Positions 1-54,376 of a DNA stretch of 64,000 nucleotides are shown here, piece by piece. This DNA comes from Ulota crispa (Eukaryota > Streptophyta > Bryopsida > Orthotrichales > Orthotrichaceae). A model generated the notes under the pieces. That model was given only the letters and a program-made list of their open reading frames with translations, was not told where the DNA came from and made no database searches. Where the stretch lies: the NCBI GenBank assembly GCA_963920765.1, contig OY987242.1, positions 7,466,789 through 7,530,788 on the forward strand, given 5' to 3'. Each line of letters starts with the position of its first letter. The stretch's first letter is position 1. The translations under genes were made by a program, and so were the position numbers.

Positions 1-29
1 CCTCGTAGGGACAAGTGGTCCTTTAGGGG
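1..29. mobile_element. Right end of a TTAA-flanked MITE
   Basis: The stretch ends in GGTCCTTTAGGGG followed by TTAA at 30-33, the same right terminus seen on many elements in this window. The left part lies outside the window. Confidence 0.4.
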
Positions 30-92
30 TTAAGGACTCTCAATGGGCTTTTGAAACTACCTGGTGTAAGCAAGGATTTGTTGTCCCCTTTG

Positions 93-1010
93 ACCCCTAA
101 AGTTTCATAAAAAAGCAATCAGAACAGGTCGTTTAGATAGCAAGGTTAAAAAAAGAAAAATTGAAAATGAATACTTGGTGCAACTCATCAAAGGATCTAA
201 TAGTAGACTACTTCATTATGATATAGTAAAAGGATGAAAGATATTTGCTTCTTAAATTGTGAGAGTTTAGGATTTGATGTGAGAAATAGTTTTTTTTGAA
301 GGCATTCAAATTATGGGCAGGTCTAATTTGGGATGACTTTTGCACCAAGAAATTCCACTATTTCAGTTGTAAATTTTCAAATTAACTTTTTAGTAGGGTT
401 GGTCATATGCCTAAATTTTTTCATAGCATTTGGAATTGAGGAACACATATTAAAAAAATAGAATACAAAACTAGCTTCAAGAAAATTCTCATATAAAGCC
501 ACTTTTTCAACAATTTTTAGCTTCCACATAAAATACTACTTTAGAAAACTAGATGGTGGAGCTTTAGGTTTTAGCTAGATTTAGAGGAGAGAAAAGGAAA
601 AAAGGAAATTGGCTAAAAGTTATGGCTTTGACAAGTTTGATCAACATAGGGTCACTTCCAACAAAGGTGAAATAAAGAGCAATAAGCAAAAATAGTTATT
701 TTTGTGGAACAAGGTTGGGTCAAATCTGGCAAGGAAACATCTTTGTCCCTCAAGTTTTAGGCAAGATCTTGAAATTTGGGTTGTGGTGTAAAAAATTCTA
801 CATGTGCTGCCCTTTGAGCAAACAAAGTTACATATTCCATCATAACTTCTTTTTTTACAAATAGAAATAGTTTGAATTTATTTACATTGGAAAGCTACTC
901 CTAGGGCAGACATCCTCTAACATTTTGTAAAGACTTACTTATTATCTATAAGTACTAGCTTGGCCAAATTTTGCTCTGTTGCCAAAAAACACAATTTGGA
1001 CCTTTAGGGG
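93..1010. mobile_element. Old TTAA-type (piggyBac-like) element, 918 bp
   Basis: The left end CCCCTAAAG and right end CCTTTAGGGG are inverted repeats. The flanking tetranucleotides are TTGA and TAAA, so the TTAA duplication has decayed. No coding region remains. Its length resembles the 934-946 bp elements at 13076 and 49941, but I could not align the interior. Confidence 0.45.
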
Positions 1011-1014
1011 TAAA

Positions 1015-1479
1015 TATCACATCTCATATGTGTTTATCACTCTTAAGTCGGGACCCACCATGAGAGCGTCATTGCAAAGTCAACATACTTGCTGCACTAA
1101 GGATGATCTTACCCTAAAATGACCTCATGACTCATTGCTTGGCCACTTGGAGGTCCATGCAACTCTAGGTACTAGGATTTCACACAGTTTACAACTAAGA
1201 TTCTGCAAGTTTGTTTTTTTTGGAATTTCATTGTTGTTGTTAATCCCTAAAGCATTGAACACCCTTTTTTGGCAACATAGCAATTTTGGGCTGCTCATTA
1301 CCAATGGATTTTTCATTTTTTTCTTTGAAATTTGCACACATGATTTGTCCAAGGAGTAGCTTAAAGGCCCAACAATTCTCATAACTTTTCCCTTCATGGT
1401 TCAAAAGTTATTACATGATATGTAGCTTTCTTTGCTCGGCGGGCAGCCAAAAAACTTCTTTAAAAATTAAATTTTTTGA
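1015..1479. other. Intergenic, degraded repeat
   Basis: No gene seen. Bases about 1130-1200 (a segment reading CTTGGCCACTTGGAGGTCC) resemble the interior of the TA-flanked MITE at 6179, suggesting a decayed copy without recognisable ends. Confidence 0.35.
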
Positions 1480-1830
1480 ATTTTGTTTTTTGAAATTGAT
1501 TCTTTAGTTTTCTATATACTTGGGAAGCTTTGAATCATTCCATTTTGATCAATGAGATTGGATTCTCTACTCTAAAATAAGCTTTGAAGTCCTTGATTTA
1601 CTCAATTTTCAATATTTTAGAAAAAAAACAAAATTGAAAGATGTAGATTGTTTATCACAACATTATAACCATTGGGATTGACATTTTCATTTCCATAATT
1701 AAGTTATTAACAATTTAGTGGTTTGAATCATTCTCTACTTCTTTTTACTTACTAATGTGTTTTCATGTGTTTTACAATTCCATATGATTTGAAAATTTTC
1801 AAGTGTGTACCCACCAACTTGTTTTGAAGA
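1480..1830. repeat. Partial inverted copy of the 13076-14009 element
   Basis: Read on the minus strand this segment matches about 13430-13715, including TCTACTCTAAAATAAGC and the run ending in TTTTTACTTACTA. The ends of the element are absent, so it is a fragment. Confidence 0.55.
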
Positions 1831-2452
1831 ACAAACCCAAAAAATTACAACCATTTTGGAGTTTTTTTCATACAAATATGACCTTGTGAAGTGCAGCTGC
1901 CCGGATTTTGGCAGAGACAAATAATGGCTTTTTGTTAATTTAAACTCAAATATCTAACAATCAACATGGCGAAAACTCCTGAATTTTTTTTCACATTTTT
2001 TGATACTAGTGTAATACAAGATCTTATAGCTACATTTGTGAAAAAAAGATTTTTTTTTCAAAAATTTAGTACTTGTACTAGAAATGGAAATTTAGGAGCG
2101 ATTTTGATGAAATTTGAGCTTAATGCTTTAGGGTTAAGCCCATTAAATTTTATTTATTGGAAGGAATTATTGATGAAAATTAATGTAAAATCGGTAAGTG
2201 TTTATGTAGTGTAAAATTTTGAGAAATTAGTGTGGGCAATCTGAATGCAATGTTTAGTGTAGTTTCATTGACCTGTTTTTGCCGAATCAATCAATATCCG
2301 GGGAAAATTGGTGTTTGAGTGTAATGTGTATGGTAGCCAGTCAATCCTCAAATGGTCAAGGGAAGGAAGTACACCATGTGTGTAAACTAAAATCGTGGAT
2401 ATTAATGAGCATAAAAACCATTCGGGGGGAATTTGCCTTCAGAAGCTTATTG
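1831..2452. other. Intergenic, one TA-MITE end
   Basis: No gene seen. At about 2222-2262 lies AATTAGTGTGGGCAATCTG followed by TTTAGTGTA, matching the right end of the TA-flanked MITE at 6179-6477. No left partner was found. Confidence 0.35.
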
Positions 2453-3299: not shown

Positions 3300-3483
3300 T
3301 CTTTTTAACCATGGTATTTTCTAAACTTTTTTATCCTGACTTTATTATCCTGGATCAATCTTGTCATGTATATATTAATATATATTGCATTTTATGTCCT
3401 TTTGTAGTCATTGTGAAATTTGTAGCTAATAGGTTGAAAACCAACTTGAAGTGTGATATTATTGTGAGCATTAGTTCTTTTAA

Positions 3484-4361
3484 CCCTTTAATGACCACAC
3501 CCATTTTCACAAAACCCACTAAAAACAGGGGTTGTAAGTTTAGATGTGCAATTGACTCAAATATGGACCCAATTTTAGTAATCCAACCATATGAATGGAA
3601 AGTACACCTTGTTTACTATAAAGCATCAAAATTTTACCTAGATCTACTATTGGAGGTGAAACATTATAATAAATGAGTGAGCCGTATGTGGAAAATCTTT
3701 AGTGTTTCATGCTTGTGTGGTTTTGAATGTTAATGCTTCATGCAAGCTTTGATTGAAAAGAGCCTTACATTTCTAGAAAGCAAGATTTCCCACCTTTACA
3801 ATAAGACTGGATCACAAGGTGTAGCTAAGTGGACAAAAGGGGTAAAAAATCCCACTTTCTTTGCTACCCTAATACGGTTCTACAAGAAATTTGATGATTA
3901 TTTTGGAAAATCCAATTGGTGAATACAATCAAGAATTGGCCTTAAATGTAGGATGACAAATTTAAAGCCAAAATGACAATGTTATTTTATTTGATTTTCA
4001 AATACTACAATTATACTAGTACCATATATGAAAACAATACAAGCATATATCTTAAGCAATTTGAAATTCTTAGAACAGTGCAATTGGAATTTGACATTTT
4101 TCTTGCATACTTGATGTATTGTGTTGTTGCTTTGATCCATCTTTGACAAAAGATGGATATGTATTTTGAAACCATGGCGTATAAACACCATTATTTGTCA
4201 ACTCATATTCCTGATTGCATTGTTATTTTTTTAGATGGATGCAAAATTCTTGTGATCACATGCATTCTTCAAGACCAAATTCCAAATTATTGAGTGATTT
4301 CAACCTACAAGCCAAAAACCACTCCCAATGACCAAAATATGGTCGTGTGGTCCTTAAAGGG
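3484..4361. mobile_element. TTAA element, family B, copy 1 (878 bp)
   Basis: Perfect TTAA on both sides (3480-3483, 4362-4365). Left end CCCTTTAATGACCACAC, right end GTGTGGTCCTTAAAGGG. Related copies lie at 21469-22334 and, inverted, about 30345-31256. A short open frame runs from the left end (M at 3491) to 3676 and is also open in the inverted copy, but is broken by a stop in the 21469 copy. No transposase domain is recognisable. Confidence 0.8.
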
Positions 4362-4373
4362 TTAAAGAACTAA

Positions 4374-4895
4374 GGGCATCCCCACCAGTGGTTTAACCCT
4401 TAAAGGACAATATGGCATAGTATATACATTGTCGTATAATCGGTATTTGCTACAAGTAAGAAGTTTTAATTTGGGATCTCAAGTAGCCCACTAGAACCGC
4501 TTTGATCTATTCTCCAATTTTGCTATTAATCTTGAATGTAGTAAAGGTGTGAATCTATTCCAAATACAAGAACAACACCTTGTATTCTACTGGTCGCAGC
4601 AGCACACTTGGTCCTTTAGAGGCTAAACATGCTCAAAGTGGATGAAAAGTGTTGAGGCCCCTCTCAAAACACTTTGTCCTATTGTGTCTGGCAAGGGCCC
4701 TTCAGACACTATTCATCTTAAGTTTAGTGAACTTTATCCTCTACTTTCCTTGATAAGTAGTCAATTGATTATTTGTGGGGCATGTTGGAGTGCAAAGACT
4801 AGCTTTTTGAAAAACATGGGTGGAGATCAAGGGGCTTAAGAGCTAACCAAAACCGATGACTTTTTTTGAAAGAGCCCGGACCGGTGGAAATGCTC
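4374..4895. mobile_element. PIF/Harbinger-type MITE carrying a nested TTAA element
   Basis: TAA target duplications at 4371-4373 and 4896-4898. Ends GGGCATCCCCACCAGTGG and CCGGTGGAAATGCTC are inverted. TAA and G-rich ends beginning GRGCATC are typical of PIF/Harbinger MITEs. A TTAA element (4397-4622) sits just inside its left end. Confidence 0.75.
4397..4622. mobile_element. TTAA element, family A, inverted copy (226 bp)
   Basis: Left end CCCTTAAAGGACAATATGG, right end CTTGGTCCTTTAGAGG, flanked by TTAA (4393-4396) and CTAA (4623-4626). It matches 9905-10130, 12647-12873 and 21246-21464 in reverse orientation; the shared core reads TTTGGGATCTCAAGTAG here. Length is constant (219-227 bp) across the four copies. 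Confidence 0.8.
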
Positions 4896-4898
4896 TAA

Positions 4899-5259
4899 CC
4901 CTTGAACGTCACAAAAGTCCTTTGCGACCGTATGTATGGTTGTATGTATAGACGTATCTGAGTTGTTCTGAGAGGTTTCCAAATTATTTTATGCACCCAC
5001 CATCATACAACCCTTCAATATGTATGGTTGTAATACTTGATTTCCAGCTGATTGAAACTTCTGAATATTGGTTGCGATTGTATTTGGTACTGTAGCTCAA
5101 CATTCATTGTAGTGGCAAATGAAAGCATCGATGTCGCCTCGCCATTGAAAGATATGTGGAAAGAAATACTAGCATGGGGAGAAATCATTCGCAACTGGCT
5201 AATTTTTGCCACTAAAATGAATTCTGCCGTAGCTCCAGAGCCCAAGGGCCCTTCAGGGG
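4899..5259. mobile_element. TTAA element, family I, with an internal insertion
   Basis: Left end CCCTTGAACGTCACAAAAG, right end GGGCCCTTCAGGGG; flanking tetranucleotides have decayed (CTAA, then GCAAAA). The reverse strand matches 40594-40818. The extra length is due to a nested MITE at 5102-5222. Confidence 0.55.
5102..5222. mobile_element. Small nested MITE with ATTCATTNTAGTGGCAAA ends
   Basis: Left ATTCATTGTAGTGGCAAA and right TTTGCCACTAAAATGAAT are inverted repeats. The segment is missing from the related element at 40594-40818, which supports insertion. Superfamily unknown. Confidence 0.55.
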
Positions 5260-6178
5260 CAAAACAACAAAATTTGAAAATTTGGCAAGGCCTAAAGTCA
5301 AACCCCACAAGCTTCAAAATAATGATTTTCATGCATGCTTTTCTTGGCTGTGCAAAGTTTCAAAAATATGCTATTATTTGTCACTTATTATAACTTTAAC
5401 GCTTTGTGAAATGTTTTTTTTGTTTTTTTTTTGCTTGTTTTCTATATGACCAGCTTGAGCCAGCCCTGCCACCGAGGCACGGTACAACACTGACATGGGC
5501 TTCAGAGTTCAGACATAAGTTTAGAAACGGAATATCTTGTATACATTTGAACTGGTATCTACTGTAGTGGAGTTATGAGAAGCTTTTCATTGGCAAAATA
5601 ATTGTCTATAATGAATCTCAATACCGTCATTGAAAAAAGTAACACTTTTATTTGGATTCTTCGAAAAAAACAAATGACGTGGAATTGGATGAAAGTTGCA
5701 GGAAATGAGAAATTAGGAGGACATGTTTCTACAGAAAAATAGTGTCGGAGAACCAGGGGTGTGTACTTTAGAGGTTGCTCTAATAGCATTTCTTGCCACC
5801 TGTCAAATGAGCTCTTTGCATTCTACTTGTAATGACTTTTACGCTTCAAGTATCTAACACCACTATATTTGTTGATGTACAAGAGCGGGGTTTTTCAAGT
5901 TTAGTCACTTTTGTCAAATTTCAACTTTTTATGTGCCACCTTCATGGCCCATGTCACTCACAAGAAGCAAAAGTGAGGAAATTAGGGTAGGAGAGTTCTT
6001 TGGGGCTATTGTTGTAGGGACTTCACGCTGGGCTGCAAGGGAACTTCACATATGTTGCGCTACTTGCTACTCATGTCCCTCTCCAAACCTAATTTCCAAG
6101 GGCTCCATTTGGCAAATGGTAGGAGATCATGCAAGAGATGCTCTAAGTAAGTTGAAAATTTGATCTTGAATTTAAATA
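5260..6178. other. Intergenic, nothing recognised
   Basis: AT-rich non-coding DNA. Open frames here are short and show no known domain. No paired transposon ends were found. Confidence 0.4.
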
Positions 6179-6675: not shown

Positions 6676-6720
6676 CTTCTTCTGAAACGATATAATTTCC
6701 CATAATTTTCTTTGTATTAA

Positions 6721-6959
6721 CCCCTGAGCGCACAGGTCATATTCACTCAAATCCATACCCTTGTGTACTTAATCCAATAAAAGTAATACCTAAGTAGAGT
6801 CAAATAGCTTGAATTTTTTGAGTGGTAGTAGACACATGCTTGGAGGGACATGAAAAAGTACAAGTCCTTTGACTTTACCATTAAGAAGAAGATAAGAGTC
6901 AAACATAGACATTTTTCAAAACTGAGCAACCACATATTGGTCGCTGGGGTGTTCAGGGG
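6721..6959. mobile_element. TTAA element, family C, copy 1 (239 bp)
   Basis: Perfect TTAA at 6717-6720 and 6960-6963. Left end CCCCTGAGCGCACAGG, right end TCGCTGGGGTGTTCAGGGG. A second copy lies at 20784-20996, sharing the interior AGTAGAGTCAAATAGCTTG. Non-coding. Confidence 0.85.
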
Positions 6960-7136
6960 TTAAACATTATTTAGTCAAGTTGGAACTTTGAAGTAATTTG
7001 ATATTTTGAAGCATTATAAGTTTGAAAATCTCTACAACATTGGGTGTCTCTACATTACTTAAATTTTGAAATTCAAAGGAAGGAAAAGGGAGAGGAAGAG
7101 GTAGCAAAAGGGTGGGGAAAAAGTCACATTAAACAG

Positions 7137-9900: not shown

Positions 9901-9904
9901 TTAA

Positions 9905-10130
9905 CCCCTAAAGGACGGAGCGTGCCGTTGCGACCAATAGAATACAAAGTGTTTTCCTTATATTTAGAATAGATTCACACCTTTATTGCATTTGAGATCA
10001 ACAAAGAAGTTGGAAAATAGATCAAAATTGTTGTAGTATACTACTTGAGATCCCAAACTAAAACTTCTTATTGGCAACAAATACCGATTATATGGCAGCA
10101 TATTTACTATGCCATGTTGTCCTTTAAAGG
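9905..10130. mobile_element. TTAA element, family A (226 bp)
   Basis: Perfect TTAA at 9901-9904 and 10131-10134. Left end CCCCTAAAGGACGGAGCG, right end TGTTGTCCTTTAAAGG. The core CTTGAGATCCCAAACTAAAA is shared with copies at 12647, 21246 and (inverted) 4397. Confidence 0.85.
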
Positions 10131-10134
10131 TTAA

Positions 10135-11900: not shown

Positions 11901-11936
11901 TTGCAAAAGCAAACAAATTCTTTGTTGTTGATTTTT

Positions 11937-12607
11937 CCCTAAAGGACTGAGCTCTTTTTTCTCCGAAAATCATTAAAAATTGTCATTTTTAGGGCAATGA
12001 GTAGAAAGGTAGAAAAAAAATGTTTTTTTTGAAAATCCAACCTTAGGATCTTGCCCTAGATTACAAGAGGTACTTGTTGGAAAAAAATCAACTCATTTCA
12101 GATGGAGAGGAGTGAGTTATTGACATCTGAAGTGAAAAAGAAAGTTTTTCATTCATGCTCAAAATTTCAAAAGCCTTTAACTGATCGTATAGCAAAAAAA
12201 TTACTCTACACAAAATTGAGGAACAAGTACATAAACCGCTCAAAAACTTAAAGTACCAAATTTTACAAGGGGCAAAAAGAATGGAGGGTTGGGAGTCCCC
12301 CAAGATGGGCACCTTCCACTCCACTCCTTTTTGCCCAAGTGTCCACACCTTGTGACCATAAGAGTTGACACTCTTTGGAGTCAACACCCACTTACAAAGG
12401 AGAAGCTAAGCCTAAATTGCCCCTCATTCCTTGGTTTTGATAAATTCTAGCATAACTTTCTCTTTAAACCTTGGAATGAAGAAAAAATTAGATGTCCGCA
12501 TAGATTTTTGAATTGCCCACCTTCAATAAAAGTTTCTAAAAACCACACAAAGTAGATTAGCCATATGTACATGCCCAAATGCCCAATTGTCCCTTGTCCT
12601 TTAGGGG
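11937..12607. mobile_element. TTAA-type element, family G, degenerate flanks
   Basis: Left end CCCTAAAGGACTGAGC, right end TGTCCTTTAGGGG; flanks TTTT and TTAT instead of TTAA. The interior matches, in reverse, 28100-28896 (for example CACAAGGTGTGGACACTTGG) and shares segments with 49941-50886. A minus-strand frame (12088-12387) overlaps the conserved part but has no recognised domain. Confidence 0.6.
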
Positions 12608-12646
12608 TTATCCAACCTACAAATTGTGAAAAAAGGTAGTATTTAA

Positions 12647-12873
12647 CCCTTTAACGTCTAAGTGTGCCGCTCTGACTAATACAAAATGAGATTTTTTTCT
12701 TGTATTTGGAATGGTTTTACACCTTTATTATGTTTGAGATTAACAAAGAAGTTGAAATATAGGTCAATACAATTCTAGCAAGCTATTTGAGATCCCAAAC
12801 TCAAACTTCTTGTTGGTTGCAAATGCCAATTATATGACAACATATAATGCTATGTCCTATGGTTATTTAAGGG
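12647..12873. mobile_element. TTAA element, family A (227 bp)
   Basis: Perfect TTAA at 12643-12646 and 12874-12877. Left end CCCTTTAACGTCTAAG, right end TATGGTTATTTAAGGG. Only 35 bp separates it from the element ending at 12607. Confidence 0.85.
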
Positions 12874-13075
12874 TTAAAGGATTGGTCATGCATGTGGAAA
12901 AATCATTTAAGTGATTGTTACTGAACATGTTGAAGTCAGGTGAACAAACCTCAAAATGCCCAAATCGGTTGATAGTTACATTGAGAAGAAATGAAAAAAG
13001 ACGACTAGCAGCATAGAGATTTGCTCCCACTTCAAAGAAAATTGGACCCTTATTTAATGCTTCATTCCTTGTTAA

Positions 13076-14009
13076 ACCCTAAAGGACCAAGCAATGTTTT
13101 CACCAAAAACTCTCCAAAATTGCCATTTGTAGGGCATCACCCAATTTGAAAATACAAACATTTTTATGCATGTGTAATTGTAGGACCTTGTAGTAGGATA
13201 GTTTGTAAAAATTTGGAAAAAAAAAATCAGAATTTTTCATCATGTGGATTGGAAGATACGACGGTTTGAATATTCAAAAACATCTTTTGAAAATCAGGCA
13301 GATACCTTTCAAAAGGTGAAATTCCTAAGGGAAAAAGGCTATGTGGGTGGTGCTTCTTTAAATTCCTTATTCTGGCTAATTAGGGTACATGCCAAAAAAG
13401 TTTCAAATCATTTGGAATTATACAACATATGGAAAAAAAAATAGTAAGTAAAAAGAAGTAGAGAATGATTCAAAACACTAAATTGTTGAGAATTTAATTA
13501 TGGAAATGAAAAATGCCAATCCCAACGGTCATAATGTTGTCATTGACAATATTCATCCTTTGGTTTGTTTTTTTTTCCAAAACATTGGAAATTGAGTAAA
13601 ATAAAGGACTTCAAAGTTTATTTTAGAGTAGAGAATTCATAACTGCCCGCAAAAAAAAAAAAAAAAAACCTCATAACTTTCATCTCATTGATCAAAATAG
13701 AATGATTTAAAGCTTTCCACATTTACATAAATCTCCTAAACCAATTTCAATTATTATTTTTTCAAAAAATGTGATTTTTAAAAATTTGCCCATGCTCCCT
13801 GCCAAATGAAAAAAAAAAACATATTAGGCCATATCTTCTCACTCATACTTTCAAATGTCATGAAATTTAGTGCATATGAAAGATAAACCTTGTTCCCACA
13901 TTCTAATATAATTTCAGCCTAAAATATGAAAACCTCCAATCACAAGTACCTGCCTAAAATTGCTAGGTTGCTTAAAATTAAAAAAAAAAAAAACTTGGTC
14001 CTTGAGGGG
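13076..14009. mobile_element. TTAA element related to family G (934 bp)
   Basis: Perfect TTAA at 13072-13075 and 14010-14013. Left end ACCCTAAAGGACCAAGC, right end CTTGGTCCTTGAGGGG. A fragment of the same sequence lies inverted at 1480-1830. It contains short poly-A runs and no intact coding region. Confidence 0.78.
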
Positions 14010-14013
14010 TTAA

Positions 14014-18947: not shown

Positions 18948-20783
18948 AAATAATTTCCACCACTCATCAAAATAAGATCTTAATAGAGGCTTTTCTGCAA
19001 AGGGGGCAAAATGCATTTGGACCAAGAAGATGAAAAAATAGTTGCACTTTTTAGATGGGAAAGAATGAAGAAGGAGATCATTTGGAGTTGTTGAGATTTT
19101 AATTTCATCCATTTTTAGTTAAAATAATTAAACCTTAATGAAGATTGAAAATGGCCACAAGATTACAAATTGTCCTTCCATTTTAGTGGAGCCCATTCTC
19201 GACCTTGAGGTTGGTTGTTAGTTCTTGTTGTTTGTGAATTCAAAATATTTTTCAAATTTTTCACCTTGACTCCTAGTATAATGATTTTGAGGTTGAATTC
19301 AAGAGTCAAAACTTTGGAGTTGATTTCACAAATTGAAACAATGAGAGACAAGGATTGAGACGTGCTTGTGCTTTGAAATGGCGTCAATTCTTGTGTAAAG
19401 TGCCCTACTTATTGGATTAGCATATGTCAACCTTTGTAATATATCTTGACTCTCAAACAAATTGGTCGAAATTCAAAACAACATTATACATGGTGGAGAT
19501 GGAAGATAAAAAAACTTGAAAAATGAAAATCTTGTTTCACTAACCTTTTTAGACTCCTTGTTTAGCTAAAATTGATTTATAAAAATTTAACTTTATCTCT
19601 CTAGTGTAATTGATTTGTGGACACCAATGCCATACTCTTTTTAGAATCATCGGATCCTTGCCAATTGGGGAGGTTTTGCACTAAAAACTATAAGAAAATC
19701 TTCTAGTAGTTGAAGGGGACACATGCGATGAAGGGCAAGATCCAAATTGAGTTGTCCTGTATTTTGTTTTATAAACGTAGTTGTATGTACAAGCAAGTCA
19801 CTTGACACTTCAAACCACCATTGACCATTCCCAATTTTTGATTTAACTAAACCGCCCTTAGTGACTTCGGGTCCAAATCCCTTGTTACATACCGCATTAG
19901 GTTTTCCTTCTTATACAAGTGCACAAATAAATTATTCAGCTTATCTCAAAAACTCCACCTCTACAATGCTTCATTCCTTGCACTCTTAAAGGTTAAGACC
20001 TCAATGCACCCGGTAAACAAGCCTTGAATAGTCACAAGCCTTGAATAGCATGACTAATCGTTAAGAAGACAAAAAAAATAGAATTTGAAAATACTATTAT
20101 TTGAAAATGAATTAAAACTCTCATTATGAAAACATGAGAAAATTTGGGTATAGACATTAATTGATTCAAATGCATTACATATAATATTAGCTAACTTCCA
20201 TAAAAAATTAGAAGGTTTTCTAAATCTAGTCCAAAGAAAAGAAATTTCAGCCGAACACACCCCGATGAAAAATGATAATTGTGATGTCCCACTTGGTTGT
20301 GATTTCTTTTTTTTGGTCTTCTTTTGAAGGACACTCTAATTTTTTCAAGAAGTTAGCTAACATATATTGAAATGTATATAGATAAAGTGATGTTCAAACC
20401 TAATTTTCCTATGTTTTCACAGTAAGGATTTCAATTTCTTTTCAAATATTTATAAGTTCCGTTATTTTGATTTCTTGTCCATTTAAAGATCAGTCATGGT
20501 ATTCAGTAACTGTATATTAGGTGCATTGAGGATGCCCTAGCAAGAAAAGACCTTCGATTAAGAAATTGAAACAAGAAACTGTTGAATTCATTGATGGTGC
20601 AAAACTGGTTATAAAATGAAACAATTGGCTATAGATGTGTCGAACACCTAGTCTACGTGCAATTTGAATTGCAAAAAGCCATTTAGTGAGCTGGATCTAT
20701 ATTTACACATCTATAAAAAGTTAGTTCAAGTTTACCACTGGATCACCGACATTCCGCAAGAATCCTTTTGCATTAACCCTTAA
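18948..20783. other. Intergenic, nothing recognised
   Basis: AT-rich DNA. Short open frames at 18909-19112 and 19163-19387 (minus) carry no known motifs. No paired repeat ends. Confidence 0.4.
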
Positions 20784-20996
20784 CCCCTGAATCTATACCC
20801 TTCTGTACTTAGTTCAATAAAAGTATTATCTAAGTAGAGTCAAATAGCTTGATTTTTTTGAGTGGTAGTAGACACATACTTTGAGGTACATGAAAAAGTA
20901 CAAGTCTTTTGATTTTAACAAGAAGAGAATAAGAGTCAAACGTGAACATTTTTCAAAACTGAGTGCCCCATTTTGAGGTCCCGGGGTGCTCAAGGG
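20784..20996. mobile_element. TTAA element, family C, copy 2 (first in a chain of four)
   Basis: TTAA at 20780-20783 and 20997-21000. Left end CCCCTGAATCTATACCC, right end GGGGTGCTCAAGGG. It matches 6721-6959. Its right TTAA is also the left TTAA of the next element. Confidence 0.82.
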
Positions 20997-21000
20997 TTAA

Positions 21001-21241
21001 CCCTTGAGCGTCTAGAGTTGAAACGAGAGAAGCTTGACTTGTGTGCAATCAAAGTGCCCCTAATGACTGAATAATACAATTCACAAGATCTGACCATATG
21101 AATTGTTAGTGGAAAGAGTATCCATCATGCTAGGCTTGATTGGAAGTCGTTTCACCGGACATGCAATGAGATTATAACGGTCAAAATTTAATTGACCCAG
21201 CTTTTTGAGCGACAATATATTGTCACTCGAGCGCTCAGGGG
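21001..21241. mobile_element. TTAA element, family D (second in the chain)
   Basis: Left end CCCTTGAGCGTCTAGAG, right end CACTCGAGCGCTCAGGGG. TTAA at 20997-21000 is shared with the previous element and TTAA at 21242-21245 with the next. Its interior matches no other copy in the window. Confidence 0.8.
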
Positions 21242-21245
21242 TTAA

Positions 21246-21464
21246 ACGACCAAAAGGCCCTTCACGACCAATACAATATGGGGCATTTTTCTTGTATTTG
21301 GAATGGATCCACACCTTTACTACATTTGAAACCAACAAAGAAGTTGGAGAATAGATCAATGTGGTTCTAGTGAGCTACTTGAGATCCCAAATTAAAATTT
21401 CTTATTGGTAGCAAATGAAAATTATATGTTAGCGTATATACTATGCCCTATGGTCGTTTAAGGG
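21246..21464. mobile_element. TTAA element, family A (third in the chain)
   Basis: The right end TATGGTCGTTTAAGGG is intact; the left end reads ACGACCAAAAGG, apparently missing the first few bases of the usual terminus. The interior CTTGAGATCCCAAATTAAAA matches other family A copies. Confidence 0.75.
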
Positions 21465-21468
21465 TTAA

Positions 21469-22334
21469 CCCATTAAAGACCACACACATTTTCCCAAAAT
21501 CCACAAGAAACCGAGGCAATAAGATTAGATGTGCATTTGAAACAAATATGGACCCAATTTGAATAATCCAACCGTACAAATGTGAAGCAAACCTTGTTCG
21601 TTGCAATGCATCAAAATTTTAGCTAGATCTACTGTTGGAGGTGAAATATTATAATGATTGAGTGAGCCGTATATGGAAAATCTCTAGTTTTTCATGCTTG
21701 TGTGGTTTTGAATGTTAACACTTTATGCAAGCTTTGATTGAGAAGAGCCTTACATTTCTAGAAAGCAGGGTTTCCCACCTTTCCAACAAGACTAGTTTCA
21801 CACAAAATAGACAAAAACAACAATCACAAGGTGTAGCTAAGTGGTCAAAAAGGGCAAAAAACCCACTTTCTTTGCTACCCTAAGACAGTTCTACAAGAAA
21901 TTTGATAATTGTTACAAAAAGTTTGATTGGTGAAAGCAATCAAATAGCCTTAAATGTAGAATAATTTTTAAAAAACAAATCGATAGCATCAGTTCAATGG
22001 ATTCTCAAATAGTACAATTGTACTACTATCATATAGAGAAATAATACAAGCGTATTTCTTGAGCAATTTTACTTCTTGAATATTTGATGTATTGTGTTGT
22101 TGCTTTGATCCATCTTTGACCAAATATGAATATGTATTTTGAGGTCATGATGTATAAACATCATTATTTATCAACTCACATATCTGATTCCATTATTGTT
22201 TCTTGGGTTAGATGCAAAATTCTTGTGATCACAAGCATTCTTCAAGATCATTTTCCAAATTAGTAAGCAATTTTACTGTATAGGCCAAAAACTACTCTCC
22301 GGAACTAAAATATGGTTCGGTGGTCTCTAAAGGG
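21469..22334. mobile_element. TTAA element, family B, copy 2 (fourth in the chain)
   Basis: TTAA at 21465-21468 (shared) and 22335-22338. Left end CCCATTAAAGACCACAC, right end GTGGTCTCTAAAGGG. Matches 3484-4361 along its length. The short frame open in copy 1 is interrupted here. Confidence 0.83.
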
Positions 22335-31256: not shown

Positions 31257-31311
31257 TTAATTGAGCTATATCACCCTAGCACCACGAAAAATGCTATCAC
31301 AATAATTAAGA

Positions 31312-32698: not shown

Positions 32699-34971
<2,273 letters not shown>

Positions 34972-37405: not shown

Positions 37406-38249
37406 CTAGTATATAGGCACGCACTTTGTAAGTCAAAATCTTAGTATTTTGTTGGGTTTTTTGCACAAAAAATGCTTGATTTAATGTATCTAGGGCGTCC
37501 TTTGTTGCTTCAGCTTACACCAAAAAACTCTAAAAAATTCTAGAAAAGGGCACCAAGTTAACCCCTAAATGCCCAAGCCCTATCTAGGCTTCTTGGACTA
37601 TCCATGAAACTAAACAATCAAGCAACCTTTTCATAAATTCCATCAAGTTTTTTTCAATTGTAACCATACAAATTTAAACTAAGCATGTTAAAGATCACAT
37701 GGAAATAGAAAACACATCAATACCACTTATAGTTTGAAAGATAAAAACGTTTGAACATGAGGGTGTTAAAAGTGCAAAAGTGACTTAAAGCTTTCTAATC
37801 CTCATTTCAAATGTCAAATCTGAAAAGTTGGTCCCCGAGTTGGTCACTAAAAAATATGAGGTTTCAAGTCATTACATGTCTAACTCTAATCAATTTACGG
37901 TTTTTAAAATCTTCTCCTACTAATTTTTTAAATAGATTTCTAATATGGATTTTTCTCCAAGCTCTAGTGTATTTAAGGCTCATTTTCAAGATCTTCCTAC
38001 ACTAAAAAACTCAAGATTGTAGTGGACATCTTTGTACAAAATCTTGAGTAGAAAAATCATCAACTTTCATTTTCAAAATCAAATTTTTGATGTTGAAAGT
38101 AGACTTCAATACAAACTTATATTGAAAAAAATATTGAAAATAATGATTTGATAAGTTTTATTCATTTTCAAATTTTTGTAAAGATCCAAATCTGGTCGCT
38201 TGGGCATTTAGGGGTTAACAAGGAAAATCCTCCCACTTAGTAGTATGGA
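37406..38249 (-). mobile_element. Non-autonomous Helitron split by a TTAA element
   Basis: Minus strand: host A (38250), TCCATACTACTAAGTGGG at the 5' end; 3' end ACAAAGTGCGTGCCTATATACTAG followed by T (37405). The two halves are separated by the TTAA element 37562-38214; without it the Helitron is about 187 bp. Its 5' end closely matches that of 36060-36562. Confidence 0.75.
37562..38214. mobile_element. TTAA element, family F, inside a Helitron (653 bp)
   Basis: Perfect TTAA at 37558-37561 and 38215-38218. Left end CCCCTAAATGCCCAAG, right end CGCTTGGGCATTTAGGGG. It is an inverted copy of 43595-44227 and 51475-52117. Confidence 0.87.
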
Positions 38250-40205: not shown

Positions 40206-40593
40206 TTAAGCTTAGTTAAATTTGCAAGCATTTTAGCTACCAATTGCGTGCAAAATGCTGTGCTATTGAGGTTGCATCACCAAGTTGCTCTTTAAGGGGA
40301 ACCCCAACTAAAGTTGGAATATAAGATCAATTATCCAATTGAATCAGTTGATGGGCCCTTTGATGTTGAGGCTTCTCCACGTAATCTAAAATTTTAATTT
40401 AGCACCACTAAAAATAACCATAATTATGGTTTATTTTTTAATTTTGTGAGTTTTCTTTGCTCAAGAGAAGACATGAGGAATTAATAATTGGGATGAATGA
40501 GGGATTGGTGGCTCATGAAGCTTGCAAAATGCTTTGGTTGGCAGAGCAGCATTCAAAGAATTTGCGACATGGCGTGGAGTGTCCTTAGGTTAA
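40206..40593. other. Intergenic, nothing recognised
   Basis: AT-rich DNA, no gene or paired repeat. Confidence 0.4.
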
Positions 40594-40818
40594 TCCCTCA
40601 AGGGCCCTTGGGCTCTGGAGCTACGGTACCAAATATGGTTGCAGCCAATATTCAGAAATTTGAATTAGTTGTAAATCAAGTGTTATAATCATACGTATTG
40701 AAGGGATGTATGATGGTGGGTGCATAAAAATTGAGAAGCCCTCAAAATAACTCAAATACGTCTGTACATATGGTCATGAATACATACAACTGCAAAAGAT
40801 TTTTGTGATGTTCAGGGA
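40594..40818. mobile_element. TTAA element, family I (225 bp)
   Basis: Perfect TTAA at 40590-40593 and 40819-40822. Left end TCCCTCAAGGGCCCTTGGG, right end GTGATGTTCAGGGA. It is an inverted, uninterrupted copy of 4899-5259. Confidence 0.8.
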
Positions 40819-41185
40819 TTAAAAGTGTGAATTCAAATTATTGTGAAGATATCTTGCATTGTTAAGACTTTTACACTTGTTAAAATAATATAAATAATTT
40901 ACATTGCATTTGATATCTATATTTTAGAAAAAATGCATGCATTTGTTTCAAAATATGCATATGGAAGTTTTTGATTCCATAAACCAAGAAGTACATTGAG
41001 CTTTTTATTATTAACCATCTCTAACAAAAATTGTAATGAGTTCTTTAGTAAGCAGGAGTTTATACATGGTGAAGTAAGAATTGTAAAATTTGTTGAACAA
41101 TATTGTATACATGTACTACTATACAAGAAATTTATTGGAGGGTTGTGAAATTCTAAATTTTAGAATACTGTGACAGTATTTTCAA
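40819..41185. other. Intergenic, nothing recognised
   Basis: AT-rich DNA, no gene seen. Confidence 0.4.
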
Positions 41186-43353: not shown

Positions 43354-43594
43354 AATGCTTTAAAAAACATGAATGTTACAACAAATATCAACTATAAATT
43401 TAGAGTTATTTGCTTCTTTGCTACATATATGTACTATCCAAAAGTCTCTCTTCAAGATGCTACCTGAGGCATTTCTTTAGTTTCTTCTCAATGGAATGAA
43501 CTTGAAAATGCTACCCAATTGTTTGTTTTCCACATATTTGTTGGACTATCACCTCCAATAGCAGAGGCAAAAATTTAATTCATTGGATGTTTAA

Positions 43595-44227
43595 CCCCCA
43601 AATGCCCACGGCATCAAATTTTGGTGTCGACAATATTCTGAAGTTCAATAAACCTAACTAAGTTGCTATTTTTAGTAGTTTATATTTTGGATTTATTCTG
43701 TGCCAAGTCTAGTTTTGGGATCAACAATTTGATTTTGAAAATGATTAATTATGAATTTTTTGTTCAAGCTTTTGTGCAAGGGTCTTGACTTTCTCTAATG
43801 TAGAGAGCTCTTGGAAATGAGCCTCAAATACACTAGATCTAGGAGAAAATTTTACACTAAAACTTCATTTAAAAAAATTGTAGAAGAGATTTTGAAAAGC
43901 TATGAAGTGATTAGGGTTATTTATGTTATTTCTTTTAACCTTGTATTTTTTTGGTGACCATTTTTTAAATCCAACATGTGAAAAGAGGATTCAAAGGCTT
44001 CAAGTCATTTTTGTAGTTTTAACACCCTCATGATCAAACATTAGTATCTTTCAATCCACAAGTGATATTGTTGTGTTTTCTTTATCAATGTGACTTCTAA
44101 CATATCTAGCTTGAATTTATACGGCTACAATTTAAAAGAACTTGATACAACTTATTAAAATGTTACCTTTTTGTTCAGTTTGAAGCAAATTCCTAGAAGC
44201 TCAAAAAAGGCCTCAGGCATTTAGGGA
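43595..44227. mobile_element. TTAA element, family F (633 bp)
   Basis: TTAA at 43591-43594 and 44228-44231. Left end CCCCCAAATGCCCACGGC, right end GGCCTCAGGCATTTAGGGA. Collinear with 51475-52117, inverted relative to 37562-38214 (shared GGAAATGAGCCTCAAATAC). Confidence 0.87.
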
Positions 44228-45739
44228 TTAATGTTTGTTCTGCCACGTTTGTTGGCTGTGGACCGTACAAAGGAAGCTATGCATTACAAGAAGCTAGTGT
44301 GAGGAAATTTGGATAAGTACCTTACTCAAGAATTAACCTAACGCTACATGGACAATGCCTTCGAAAACACACACTTGTTGGAATTCCAAGAGGCAAAAAT
44401 ATTTTACCAATGGATTCTATTGTGAGGCTAAAAAAAATTAACTAATGGATTCTACTTTGAGTCTAGAAAAAATTAACTAGTGGATTCTATTATGAGGCAA
44501 AAATATTTAAGTCATTTAGCAATTATTACTATTCATACAATCCAATGAAGAATTTTGTGCACACATATTTCATTTACATATATCCCATTGAAATGAGTAA
44601 CGGGCAGCTATGAAAATCTATTATTGGCTGCTCAGCGTCCAGAACTCCAGGTCCCGAGGCTTCTTTCCAGGTCTAAATCAATGTGACTTGCTTGAGTCCA
44701 GTCATGATTGAGGAGCGTCTTCAACACTACCTACATTATTGTCATGCTTCTCCCAAACGTCCTCGTATCCAGCTCCCACCCAGCGCACATACAGAAAGAG
44801 GAGTCCATCAATCTACTCTTGAATATAAAACGCCAGATTTCGGTACTCCACACTCATGTATCCCAAGCAGCGTCACTTCACCATTCAATCACACAACGAA
44901 TGGTAAACAAAAACAACGAGAATAATGAAACCTAGCCTTCCAACTAACTACTCGTTGTTGGAGACTTCCTTCCACAATGCAGGTCACATGAAATAATCAA
45001 AAACAAGTTTCGTCACCAATATACAAAAACCCCTCGATATCTTTCATATTTCGTCTCCTGGACAAAAGCAGTCCAAGGAGAACACCAATCAACAATCTAC
45101 TTTGAAATGAACTTGATATCTAAAGAATGGAATCGTTGAGGTCATGCCTACAACAAGAAAAGCGCAAATCTCTACAGCAATGGCTAAAGTATGAGGGAGT
45201 GAAATCTCCCTTCCTGTTCAAAGATCAACCCGTCTGCAATTTCTATACAAGTAGCACTACGCTTTGTGATGGACGTTGGTCCCCACTATCATGAATTCCT
45301 GAAAATAAGTGGAATGTTTTCCTTCGAAGTAGTAGAAGTGGCATAAATGGTACATGAACAGTCTCCATAGCGGCAGCCTGTCACCAATGATGAACGGCGT
45401 AATGAGAAGCACAATTTAAGGTAGGATCTCTCCTTCGTAAATGCTATGACATGAATATCAGGAAAGTATGGAAATATGACTTAAGAAATCTTACGTTGCT
45501 GTAATGAGTAGCCGCTGCCGTCTGTAAGCCCACACGAAACTACATGTGTTGTCGTTTCAACGTTGAGGTGGAATTACTTCCGTTTAAACATTCACAGCTA
45601 TGTTTCAATTCACCTGCAGTCATTTTGAGAAGCCATGGTACTAGCCAAAGGGGCAACAACAACAATTCTGCTAAGTTTCGGTCACTGAAACTCCTTGTGA
45701 AGGTCTAGGAAAAAGGTTCCAATCCACAACGATGCCACT
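44228..45739. other. Region downstream of SHMT
   Basis: AT-rich to about 44620 with three degenerate copies of TTAACTARTGGATTCTA (44395-44500). From about 44640 composition becomes gene-like, and it may hold the SHMT 3' untranslated region or a further 3' intron. No separate gene recognised. Confidence 0.4.
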
Positions 45740-49737: not shown

Positions 49738-51034
49738 GGGAATTGCTAAAACCACACCCAAAATTGCTAATGTCACACCTCAAGGTGTGTTTTGAGCATG
49801 AAATGCAAAAATTAAGTACTGATTTTTTTAAAATTTGTATCAAAATATTTGTTTTACCTCTTTCCTTCTACTGCTACATTCAAAAAAATTGGAGGTGCTT
49901 GAATTTGAAATCAAAAATATATGACTTTTGAATTACTTAACCTCTAAAGGCCCAAGCCCTTTTTTTGTGAAAATCACTCAAAACCGCCACTTTTGGGGGA
50001 GTGAGGAGAAATGTTTTTTTTTTTTTTTTTTTGGAAATCCAACCAAAAAATTTTGCCCTAGACTATGGGAGGTACTTGTGGGAAAAGAATCAGCTCATTC
50101 TAGTTGTAGAGGAGTGAGATATTGACATCTGAAGTGAAAAAAAAAAGTTTTTTTCCTTGCTGCCCAAAACCTTCAAAAGCCTTTGACGGCTCCTATATCA
50201 AAAAAATTGCTCTACGCAAAGCTAAGGTTTATTCTTCCCATGTAGAAGACCAAGTTGGGTAAATGTGGGAGAATTTTCAAATGAAACGGAGGTGTAGATC
50301 ATACTTTGTAAAATCCTGCAATGCCATAAGGTCATGAAATTTGCATATACACTAGGCAAAATTGGAGGATTTGTGTAAAATTCAAAAACCCAATTTACTT
50401 TGATCCAAATGGTAAAAATCAAGGAATCTTAGTCTACTACAACTTACCCAGAAAAGAAGTCAAAAAACAAATACACAAAGAGCTCAAAAAAGTAAAGCAA
50501 CAAGTTTTACAAGGGGGAAAAAGAGTGGAGGTTTGGGAGTCCCATACCTACCCGCAAACTAAAACTTCTCATAGCTTTTATCTCATCTACCAAAATTGAA
50601 TGATTCAAAGCTTCCCAAATACATGAAAATTTGAAGAACTGATTACTAAAAAAATTTAAAAAACGTTGCAATTTTTTTTTTGGTGCCCGATTCTCCCTTG
50701 TTATTCAGTTATTCATGCATAACTTCTTCAATAATTGTCAGAATGGAGAAAAAATTATACTCCCACATAGGTCTTCACATTCTCTACCTTCAATAAAAGT
50801 TTCAGAAAATCATGCAAAGTAGATTAGCCATAGGTACCTGCCCAAAATCCCATTTGTCCCCTAAGGGGACAATGAGCCTTTAGGGGTTAAAGTAAAAGTA
50901 TGTTATAAAAAGATGAAGCAATGGTGCAATAAAAGTTTAGCAAAAATTTGTATTTTTTTTAGCATTAAATTCTCAAATTACATGCTCACAAAGGTGTGGC
51001 ATGAGCAATTTTGGGTGCAACTTTAGCAATTCCC
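49738..51034. mobile_element. MULE-type MITE split by a TTAA element
   Basis: Ends GGGAATTGCTAAAACCACAC and TGCAACTTTAGCAATTCCC are inverted for about 45 bp. Flanks TCTTCTTTA (49729-49737) and TATTCTGTA (51035-51043) agree at 7 of 9 positions. Removing the nested 49941-50886 element leaves about 350 bp, matching the relatives at 24213 and 8775. Confidence 0.8.
49941..50886. mobile_element. TTAA element, family G, nested (946 bp)
   Basis: Perfect TTAA at 49937-49940 and 50887-50890. Left end CCTCTAAAGGCCCAAGCC, right end TGAGCCTTTAGGGG. Shares TTATTGACATCTGAAGTGAA-type sequence with 11937-12607 and, reversed, with 28447-28740. Confidence 0.82.
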
Positions 51035-51474
51035 TATTCTGTATTATAAAAAATTGGGTGTCAAACATTGGGTGTGTGTTTGTTACTCAAATTTGAAATT
51101 CAAAAAGGAAGGGAGTGAGAGCAAAAAGTAGAGAAAGAGAGGCTCAAAAATGTAAAATTCAAGTAAAAATGGAGAGGAAAAGGCATGAAAAGGAAAGGTG
51201 AATAGTCACATGAAAAGTCACCTTAAGTTTAGAGAGACATGGCTTGAAGCGTGTGCATGGCATATTTGCTTTGTTAAAATGGAGCAAATAAGAGCAAAAG
51301 CACAAAATCTCTACAATTTGGGAAAAAGGGAGTTAATCGTAGGAATCAGCAACAATAATGCTTAATGAAAAAAGGTTTGTTTTTCTTATTATTTGAGAGA
51401 GCAACTGTCAAAAAAAATGTTTGCTTCCCCGATACTTATACATGTGAGCAATGCACTGGAGTATGAAAATTTAA
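51035..51474. other. Intergenic, nothing recognised
   Basis: Purine-rich AT-rich DNA (GGGAGTGAGAGC..., GAGAGG) similar to 7070-7130, suggesting another old repeat without clear ends. Confidence 0.35.
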
Positions 51475-52117
51475 CCCAAAAGCGTCATTGGGACAGAAAT
51501 TGTCCTCAACCAATTTTTGAGGTTAAATTAAACCTAATCAAATTACAAATTTTAGTATATTATATTTTTGAAAAGTTCTTTATGAAGTTTAGTTTTAGCT
51601 TCAACAAACTGATTTTGCAAATGATTGACTATGACTTTATTGTTCAAGATTTTGTGCACGGGTGTTCATTGCAATCTTGATTTTATGTAGTGTTGAGGGC
51701 TCTTGGGAATGAGCCTCAAATACATTAGATCTTTTAGAAAAATCCACATTAGAAATTCATTTAAAAAGATTGCAGAGTAGATTTTGAGAAGTCATAAATT
51801 GATTGGGGTTATGCATGTTAGGCTCTTTAACCTCATATTTTTGGTGGCCAACTTTTTTGATTTGACATGTGAAAAGAAGATTGAAAGACTTCAAATCACT
51901 TTCACAGTTTTAACACGCTCATGATCAAACATTATAATCTTTCAATTCATAAGAGTTGTTGTTGTGTTTTCTTTTCTAATGTGATCTCTAACATGTCTAG
52001 TTTGATTTTACACAGTTACAACTCAAAAAGAATTGATACAACTTATCAAAATATTGGCTTTTAGTTCAAATTAGAGAAAATTCTTAGAAGCCCTGGAAAT
52101 GCAATGTCACTTTGGGG
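51475..52117. mobile_element. TTAA element, family F (643 bp)
   Basis: TTAA at 51471-51474 and 52118-52121. Left end CCCAAAAGCGTCATTGGG, right end AATGTCACTTTGGGG. Collinear with 43595-44227; its termini have diverged more. Confidence 0.8.
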
Positions 52118-52263
52118 TTAAACGTTGTTGTAGTCATTTTGTGGTTTTTGGATGATTGAATATTGCTCTAAGAGTGATTTAACACTTTTTCTCATCCAAG
52201 GTTTTGTTGGGATATGAAAGAAGCAATCTAGAGCATGTTGATAGGTAGCTTTTATATGCACAA

Positions 52264-52909
52264 TAGTGGGTGTCAAACCTGGCTATTTTCCACCCAACAA
52301 GTTTGGCTAGGTCCACCCCACAACTCAACCGCTTTTTGAAGTTATAAGGCATGATAACTTCATCACCCACCTCTAGAGGTGGTTGAAAACTTAAACTAGT
52401 TATGACCTCTCTTTATAAAAGTTATCAAGTGATCTTGTAGCTCTCTTCTAAAGGGAGACTGTGATACTAAAGAGGGAGATTGTGATACTAAAGAGGGAGA
52501 TTGTGATACTAAAGAGGGAGGGTGTGACATTAAAGATGTTAGTGTTATTACTAATCATACTACTAAAATCTCATTACTCTATAATATCACACCCTCCCTC
52601 TGTAATATCACACCCTCCCTCTGTAATATCACACCCTCCCTCTTTAATATCACACCCTCCCTCTTTAATGTCACACCCTCCCTCTTTAATGTCACAGTCT
52701 CCCTATTTAGTATCACACATCAATCTTTGTGACATTATCCCATACATAAGTTTTGAAGACTTACTCAAATTTTTATCAAGTAGTTTGTGAAGCTTTGAAA
52801 GGGTGATAACTTTGGAGAATTTGGTTCAGTCACCACCCTGTAACTTTACAAAAAAATCCAAACAAAGTTATCCAAAAACCTTCAAATATGCCAGGTTTGA
52901 CACTCACTA
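52264..52909. mobile_element. Foldback-type element (646 bp)
   Basis: Outer ends TAGTGGGTGTCAAACCTGGC and GCCAGGTTTGACACTCACTA are inverted. Inside lie AAGTTATCA-rich sub-terminal repeats and oppositely oriented 21-bp tandem arrays. Flanks TATGCACAA and ATGTTCACAA may be a decayed duplication of about 9 bp (MULE-like). Coding absent. Confidence 0.7.
52448..52719. repeat. Inverted pair of 21-bp minisatellite arrays
   Basis: Left array (about 52448-52533) repeats AAGAGGGAGATTGTGATACT(A) about four times. Right array (about 52581-52719) repeats the reverse complement unit (ATATCACACCCTCCCTCT..) about six and a half times. A short AT-rich spacer separates them, so the region can fold into a long stem. 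An apparent 109-codon frame here is a by-product of the repeat. Confidence 0.9.
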
Positions 52910-53458
52910 ATGTTCACAAAAGGGTTCCACTTGCTAATTGATTTGTAAGGATGCACCACCGTGTAGTGTATCTTGAATTTTGAGGATCTTTTTACCAAAA
53001 CTCAGTGTGAGTTATTAACTCCTAAAATTCTTTTGTGTTCAAAGGCCAAAGATGCTTCAAAATACTAGTCCCAAAAGCAAGGTCAATATCTTTATTGAAA
53101 ATTACTTTTTAACAAATTCAACCATAGGATCCTTTGGTTGACTTGCACAAGTATATTGTCCCAAAATTTCAAAATGAATATCCGTACCAATTGTAAGTTC
53201 AATGTACCTAAATTTGGCTTTTCTAGTCCTTCCAAAAGGTGAAGTTTTGTTTTTCAAGCTTTTTAGAGAAAAACACATATGTTATATTTCTTGGGCAATT
53301 TTGGCAATACGTTGGAAAATGAGTTGAAAGCATATATAAAAACTTCAACCAAAAAAAAATTTGGATTCATTTTTACAAAAAGTTGTAAAGTGAAAGGGTA
53401 TTGGTGAATGAAAGATATAACTAATATGCTAATAAATTTTGGAAGAATTTGAAAATTG
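52910..53458. other. Intergenic, nothing recognised
   Basis: AT-rich DNA, no gene or paired repeat ends. Confidence 0.4.
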
Positions 53459-53900
53459 TTAACCCCAATGATGAGAATGCTCTAACAGACAATTAGTAAC
53501 TTGAGTTTTCATTTTCATTTGAAAATTTTCAAATTTGAGAGTAAAAGATAATTTCATATGTTTTTTCTACCCTCTTCCTACCTTCATTATTTGCAAAATA
53601 AAACTTCTTTTAATTCTTACCTCATTATTTGGAATTGAGTAATTCAATTTTTTTGAGTAGGTATACAATTCTATAAAAAAATAGAGTATATTTTTTGCTG
53701 CCCGGTTTGACATTGAAATTGAAAAGACCTTCTAACTTTTGCATTACTTACTGGAATGACATGAAATAAAGCTTCACATGTAGATTATGATGAGTAGCAT
53801 CCATCATAAAAATTTCATAAAAAATTTCCAAATTATGAAGTTAATAAAGCCTGCCCAAATTTTCATAAAGCCCAAAGTGGGCTCCTTGGTCCTTTAGGGG
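53459..53900. mobile_element. TTAA element with uncertain left end
   Basis: The right end CTCCTTGGTCCTTTAGGGG before TTAA (53901-53904) is typical. A possible left end is TTAACCCCAATGATGAG at 53459, but it matches the right end poorly. The interior has GCTGCCCG and CATGAAAT-type words like 13620-14009. Confidence 0.4.
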
Positions 53901-53904
53901 TTAA

Positions 53905-54372
53905 AATGATGCGTTTTTAGTTTGAGTTTAACTAGCAATAGAAAGTTTACAAGATATAGTTTCTCATCATATTTTGGGTTTCTGAAAATTTTAAGTTTTG
54001 AAATTTGTATTACTATCACAAGTTGAATACCTATTACCATGGAATGGTTACTTTTTCTAATTTTACCATGGGGAAAAAAATTCCATCATGATGATCTTCA
54101 TATTGATTTACATTCATGATTAAAAAATTGGCATAACGGAATACATTTTGTAATTAATATGAATTTCTTTAGCATTTGCTTCAAAAAATTACAATAGTTT
54201 CAAATTTTCACTTATATCTATGAATATTTTCTATACATGTTGTATGCACATACCTTCTTATATTAAATTTATAAGATTGAATTTTAATGTTGATTATATT
54301 GCCAAAATCACTCTTAAAAGATGATTGCAATTCCATAAAAAAACCCATGGTTGTAGGCCCGTCATTTAAGGG
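53905..54372. mobile_element. Probable TTAA element chained to the previous one
   Basis: Right end GGCCCGTCATTTAAGGG before TTAA (54373-54376). The left end AATGATGCG directly follows the TTAA at 53901-53904 and seems to lack its first bases, as at 21246. Non-coding. Confidence 0.4.
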
Positions 54373-54376
54373 TTAA

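Follow-up and report, generated by a model that had tools for sequence, protein, structure and literature searches.

Which kind of transposase moved the many short elements that lie between TTAA tetranucleotides in a 64,000-bp stretch of plant DNA (Ulota crispa contig OY987242.1, positions 7,466,789 to 7,530,788; this whole stretch, ~35% G+C, is called the window here)? An earlier note on the same sequence had reported at least two dozen elements with TTAA on both sides and inverted CCC-type ends, covering about a fifth of the window, and had suggested that one transposase moved them all, with a piggyBac signature. Our inventory comprises 26 elements; in 20 of these both ends are present and in 6 a single end (one of the six being cut off by the window start), so that two dozen holds for the total and not for elements with both sides preserved. 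They occupy 13,567 bp (21.2%), or 14,484 bp (22.6%) including an uncertain block at 53460-54376, which bears out the estimate of a fifth. The elements are real, mostly well bounded and piggyBac-type by anatomy, and their interest lies in the host and the amount; it is very probable that they are non-autonomous elements resembling miniature inverted-repeat transposable elements (MITEs), mobilised by a single transposase lineage of the piggyBac superfamily, or by a few closely related lineages, belonging to the plant host.

The ends consist of TTAA followed by CCCYTDARSGMCC, with the terminus consensus CCC(C/T)TAA(A/G).G(A/C)CC in a position matrix. A scan of both strands for TTAACCCYTDARSGMCC returned 35 matches at 15 or more of 17 positions (vs. 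0.4 expected) and 47 at 14 or more (vs. 3.4 expected; 10 first-order Markov resamples); note that TTAACCCYTDARSGMCC was derived from the earlier description of this very sequence, and these counts show an excess rather than independence. A second scan, blind to the flanks and using the 13 terminal bases (at least 12 of 13 matching), gave 36 matches, 24 of them directly preceded by an exact TTAA and 31 by TTAA with at most one mismatch, in a window that holds 445 TTAA in total. Six of the 36 rows are redundant or were not accepted as ends (29071 and 29074, the tandem duplicate of 28897/28900; 5262, which repeats the end at 5263; 31261 and 40591, where real ends are read out of register; and 1108), and with these removed an exact TTAA precedes 24 of 30 matches and a TTAA within one mismatch precedes 29 of 30. 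The inverted CCC-type ends beside TTAA are thereby confirmed.

Families were delimited by self-BLAST and further ends were found with the position matrix. Among the 36 ends chosen to build that matrix, C occupies the first base in 34, the second in 36 and the third in 33, and C or T the fourth in 35, giving CC..GG termini of the form CC[C/T]T, with 2.0-2.5 bits per position over CCC. The two ends of one element agree at 9-13 of the first 13 bases in 13 of 16 listed elements, as expected of the ~12-19 bp terminal inverted repeats (TIRs) of the piggyBac superfamily; the three exceptions are F940b (5 bases, its ends differing by a 1-base shift) and two elements with uncertain left ends (6 and 2 bases, the value of 6 having been computed one base off register). 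These termini bear directly on Kolobok-superfamily MITEs, an alternative named in the earlier note, which share the TTAA target and are listed from chlorophytes and red algae (PMC9587614). Kolobok and T2-MITE termini are nonetheless described as 5'-RR..YY-3' (PMC9587614), in Xenopus AG or AGGRR (PMC6004289), and the ends here are not 5'-RR, their first two bases being C in the numbers just given; on this count Kolobok can be ruled out as a very improbable source.

TTAA carries 1.45-1.47 bits per position across the 36 chosen ends, and positions outside it carry at most 0.2 bits, with a slight excess of T adjoining TTAA (18 of 36; the flank list excludes ends within the clusters at 20773-21468 and 28900). 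To look for empty sites, the flanks of 22 intervals were fused, retaining a single TTAA, and compared by alignment with the remainder of the window. Paralogues running across the junction, of the sort that the earlier note had proposed to seek, were found for three intervals: 1240-2137 (TCAA, CTAA and CCAA at the junction), 49937-50890 (CTAA and TTAA) and 37558-38218 (TGAG). Of the three paralogues at 1240, one aligns without any gap at the junction itself, as do those at 49937 and 37558, in agreement with a 4-bp duplication; the other two at 1240 have gaps near it. The cleanest case is the fourth F240 copy (20773-21468), whose left terminus is split into TTAACCC-TTAA and TTAA-ACGACC by two nested elements; when the pieces are rejoined around one TTAA, this tetranucleotide and the following 13 bases are identical to the right terminus of the copy. 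The target is a duplicated 4-bp TTAA, as in the piggyBac superfamily.

Two of the intervals with empty sites lie in older repeats. One repeat (8777-9132, 24237-24590 and 49764-51002) shows GGGAATTGCTAA at 3 of the 6 ends printed, its third copy being interrupted by an F950 element; the other (6189-6477, 14781-15063, 23108-23376 and 1093-2259) has its last copy interrupted by an F940 copy.

Could the elements instead be the usual plant MITE types (PMC12550479, PMC12595863), Tc1/mariner (Stowaway, TA target) or PIF/Harbinger (Tourist, TWA target), sitting in TTAA by chance? A TA reading restores the same empty sites and, since TA is part of TTAA, a TA duplication would be compatible with the empty sites taken by themselves. 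It is excluded because the outer T is near-fixed (33 of 36 rows of the flank-blind list, with the inner A in 32 of 36), whereas at a TA or TWA target this base should vary freely; neither the free outer base of a Tc1/mariner site nor a 3-bp PIF/Harbinger site was found, all four TTAA bases being near-fixed at both ends, and we hold this origin to be scarcely tenable. Still less credence, practically none, attaches to segmental duplication or a longer fixed sequence in place of transposition. A 174-bp perfect tandem duplication does cover one junction, but self-alignments between family copies run at most 9 bp past TTAA, several stop inside the element, the flanks are low in information and empty sites exist. 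Both observations that the earlier note had named as fatal to its account, TTAA lying in a longer conserved sequence and copies sharing their flanks, are thus absent from the window.

A feature that the earlier note had not recorded, and that is new here, lies just inside the termini: in many families one end carries a palindrome centred on base 25. Examples are AGCGACCAGATTCTGGTCGCT at 29840, TTGTCCCCTTAGGGGACAA at 50890 and AGTGACAATATATTGTCGCT at 21245, all beginning at base 15. When pairing was averaged by family (13 groups), counting at each centre whichever end paired better, the maximum over 160 centres fell at 25.0 (0.511; next 0.445), and 0 of 1000 random-anchor sets reached this value; with one copy per group it was 0.527, reached by 0 of 2000. 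Without grouping, centre 25.0 has the most ends with at least 5 of 7 pairs (7 of 46). All seven copies of the half-site GCGACCA in the window lie within ~48 bp of an element end, vs. 0.25 expected by area. At the palindrome-bearing end, E24749/E29071, E24749/F215, E29071/F215 and E20997/E29071 align over 39-40 bp (77-85% identity), F650 aligns over 26-30 bp with three of these four, and E20997/F215 over 15 bp only. The statement that termini are interchangeable therefore stands for ~13 bp at both ends, and in several family pairs the similarity extends at one end to 26-40 bp.

These features were compared with those of known systems. The hallmarks of piggyBac are given as TTAA, CC[C/T]T and 12-19 bp TIRs (PMC2872659), with CC..GG termini (PMC10045372). 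In the Trichoplusia ni (T. ni) element a dimer of the cysteine-rich domain binds a palindrome within bp 17-33 of one left end, narrowing the minor groove at ~bp 25 (PMC7351741), and the right end has the same repeat at another distance (PMC7351741, PMC11707139). The window elements resemble it in the TTAA target, the palindrome centre near bp 25 of one end and the asymmetry of the ends; they differ in that T. ni piggyBac has the repeat in both ends, differently placed, that the half-site here is often GCGACCA, that the host is a plant and that no transposase was seen. The piggyBat element of Myotis likewise has, close behind its tip, an imperfect palindrome that is confined to the left end and unrelated in sequence to that of T. 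ni, although it has three such sites there and is autonomous and mammalian (PMC11707139). A palindrome near bp 17-33 of one end, a property of studied members and not a formal criterion of the superfamily, is present here, in many families and not in all; across the window families, too, its position is conserved and its sequence differs. The coral CMITEs are similar in being non-autonomous, in TTAA and in having several families with CCCTTT or CCCCT ends and tandem arrays; unlike the window elements, which share ends and mostly differ in interior, they are ~100 bp long and share their interiors more than their ends (PMC2872659).

One piggyBac-type system, indicated by the TTAA target, the CC..GG termini with CC[C/T]T and the base-25 palindrome, is accordingly the best reading, as the earlier note had proposed. 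In such a system the enzyme would recognise the ~13 bp of CCCYTDARSGMCC at both ends and, in many families, also the palindrome at about bases 15-35 of one end, in which GCGACCA is a frequent half-site; a C-terminal cysteine-rich domain would probably serve this recognition. The element would be excised and inserted at TTAA, leaving a TTAA copy on each side. Any DNA acquiring such ends could be mobilised, which would account for many interiors with common ends. Kinship to piggyBac is read here from DNA ends, and membership by descent is putative. Another TTAA-targeting transposase might have arrived at piggyBac-like ends by convergence, for example Sola3, which uses a TTAA target, or an undescribed plant superfamily. 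This is somewhat favoured by the lack of any transposase in the open reading frames (ORFs) scanned and by a report that piggyBac is only occasional in plants, e.g. in red algae (PMC12732532); we nevertheless consider it unlikely, since three end features (TTAA, CCC termini and palindrome position) match piggyBac and since T. ni piggyBac and piggyBat, too, have palindromes unlike each other in sequence (PMC11707139).

Several observations weigh against attributing the elements to a piggyBac transposase, or soften the evidence for it. No transposase was found by Pfam in the stop-to-stop ORFs scanned, which were 143 of the 199 with at least 62 amino acids (the other 56, mostly over the ARF and SHMT genes, were left out by hand) and 139 of 46-61 amino acids from four chosen stretches (the window has 402 ORFs of at least 50 amino acids). 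The element ends gave 0 matches each in viral contigs and in prokaryote genomes, as expected for a plant repeat and hence uninformative. The end matrix was built on 36 ends that we selected. Exact TTAA is present in one of the six empty-site paralogues, the rest being CTAA (2), TCAA, CCAA and TGAG, and 19 of 22 intervals gave no empty site within the window (18 with no alignment across the junction, and 21465-22338 matching only its own flank). As to the palindrome, counting any palindrome in bases 13-40 at the lowest cut-off gave 17 of 46 ends vs. 9.8 expected, with 6, 12 and 8 in control windows further in, and the next cut-off gave 5 vs. 3.1; ungrouped, the mean pairing at centre 25.0 (z 1.9) is no better than third. 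Hairpins in general are weakly enriched at the ends, and only the position-specific, family-grouped test is convincing. F940, E90 and the element ending at 54376 have no clear palindrome at 25; in F240 and F360 there is a half-site, or the palindrome is displaced. The seven GCGACCA cannot be counted as independent: one palindrome supplies two of them as its halves, copies of F240 supply two more, and another comes from a zone (30355-30395) included after a truncated palindrome had been noticed there.

Convincing Pfam matches were limited to SHMT, Arf, NatA auxiliary subunit and TPR; the remainder (e.g. Engrail_1_C_sig, 2.6e-4; CRM1_repeat, 7.8e-4) were taken as chance. The longest element has 954 bp, so that the elements are too short for a piggyBac transposase, the size of which is given as at least 500 amino acids (PMC10813416, PMC12732532).

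The elements fall into 13 family groups, of which seven are multi-copy (F880, 3 copies; F240, 4; F215, 2; F940, 2; F950, 3; F650, 3; F360, 2) and the others single-copy (E90, E20997, E24749, E28897/29071 and the elements ending at 53904 and 54376). Because F940 and F950 have 58-87 bp of interior in common and E90 is weakly similar to F940, we count ~10 unrelated interiors instead of 13, in keeping with the earlier figure of at least nine. Pairwise Kimura two-parameter distances between copies range from 0.12 (F880) to 0.45 (F950); the plant substitution rate being ~7e-9 per site per year, the copies would be roughly 9 to 32 million years old. This spread points to prolonged, old activity and not to the single burst that the earlier note had envisaged. 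Two F950 copies have ~240 bp (28369-28609 and 50220-50466) that are missing from the third at 12221/12225; the difference is probably a deletion, the short copy having no TTAA at the break.

We see an even chance that the plant lineage hosts its own long-lived piggyBac clade, with its own palindrome specificity (GCGACCA), which cross-mobilised ~10 unrelated non-autonomous families and built up a sizeable share of the genome. piggyBac transposons are known chiefly from animals, with few descriptions from plants. Among the open-licence matches listed we found none describing a land plant rich in piggyBac-type MITEs, the subscription literature being mostly outside this scope. The main texts of a 207-genome plant MITE survey (PMC12550479) and of a 2025 plant MITE review (PMC12595863) contain neither 'piggyBac' nor 'TTAA', and piggyBac work in plants has so far used animal-derived transposase, to judge by titles cited in PMC12732532. 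Against novelty, one abstract has piggyBac isolated from 'insects, fungi and plants' (PMC10813416), a plant review counts PiggyBac among plant superfamilies (PMC10794571), a C-fern paper tabulates 1,230 PiggyBac copies at 0.00% (PMC6890710), and a beetle paper, the source of the red algal example above, calls piggyBac occasional in plants (PMC12732532). A plant piggyBac system of this kind is missing from the superfamily list usually used to sort plant MITEs. Should a fifth of some plant's gene-bearing DNA consist of piggyBac-type elements, a superfamily may be escaping annotation pipelines. The plant host would then be a place to seek a native plant piggyBac transposase, and horizontal transfer or ancient retention. 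Elements moved by piggyBac could be recognisable from DNA alone by the base-25 palindrome, which keeps its position even as its sequence varies.

Coordinates of all elements are collected in Table 1. Three junctions share one TTAA (20997-21000, 21465-21468 and 28897-28900), and one further insertion lies inside a terminus (20773/20780); these neighbours can be likened to the tandem arrays of coral piggyBac MITEs (PMC2872659). No preference for TTAA-sharing neighbours is claimed, as a rough hand estimate from the 445 TTAA sites gives ~1-2 expected.

Table 1. TTAA-flanked elements of the window, in order of position.
Element	Position	Length (bp)	Remarks
Right end, element cut by window start	1..33		TTAACCCCTAAAGGACC, 17/17
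E90	90..1014	925	decayed flanks TTGA/TTTA; weakly like F940; ends 11/13 identical; matrix scores 9.0, 18.6
F940 copy	1240..2137	898	inserted in older repeat; empty site found
F880 copy 1	3480..4365		palindromic end at 4365
F240 copy 1	4393..4626		self-alignment, matrix
F360 copy 1	4895..5263		decayed flanks CTAA/TTTG
F215 copy 1	6717..6963		palindromic end at 6963
F240 copy 2	9901..10134		self-alignment, matrix
F950 copy	11934..12611		left end decayed, boundary approximate; internal deletion
F240 copy 3	12643..12877		self-alignment, matrix
F940 copy	13072..14013	942	self-alignment, matrix
F240 copy 4	20773..21468		left terminus split at internal TTAA by two nested elements (20780-21245)
F215 copy 2, nested	20780..21000		self-alignment, matrix
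E20997	20997..21245		TTAA 20997-21000 common with neighbour; palindromic end at 21245
F880 copy 2	21465..22338		TTAA 21465-21468 common with F240 copy 4; palindromic end at 22338
E24749	24749..25295		palindromic end at 24749
F950 copy	28106..28900		far end truncated, boundary is alignment stop
E28897/29071	28897..29840		perfect palindromic end at 29840; contains most of 174-bp perfect tandem duplication
F880 copy 3	30363..31260		palindromic end truncated
F650 copy 1	37558..38218		ends 13/13 identical; empty site found (paralogue TGAG)
F360 copy 2	40590..40822		internally deleted
F650 copy 2	43591..44231		palindromic end at 43591
F950 copy	49937..50890		palindromic end at 50890; empty site found
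F650 copy 3	51471..52121		self-alignment, matrix
Single element	53460..53904		right end clear, palindrome bases 18-32; left boundary uncertain, one candidate TTAACCCC from 53459
Single element	53901..54376		right end (54376) clear; left boundary uncertain

The window also carries genes. A serine hydroxymethyltransferase (SHMT) ORF of 606 residues lies at 45743-47560 (minus strand), its best solved relatives being named SHMT7 and SHMT6, which are Arabidopsis proteins; an ARF1 exon lies inside the ORF at 34222-34623 (minus strand), with 3aq4, also from Arabidopsis, as best match. Both ORFs indicate a plant host. Six scanned ORFs matched the NatA auxiliary subunit in Pfam, and the ORF at 61726-62118 presumably encodes this subunit. 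The ARF1 and SHMT ORFs are flanked on both sides by elements in one window, which argues against contamination.

Two perfect tandem duplications stand in otherwise old sequence (174 bp, 28885-29232; 82 bp, 31607-31771) and are either very recent events or assembly artefacts. A transfer RNA (tRNA) gene, tRNA-Thr(CGT), lies at 43007-43082, with a second tRNA match ~200 bp further on the same strand (43281-43353), and two adjoining arrays of 21-bp repeats occupy 52452-52718.

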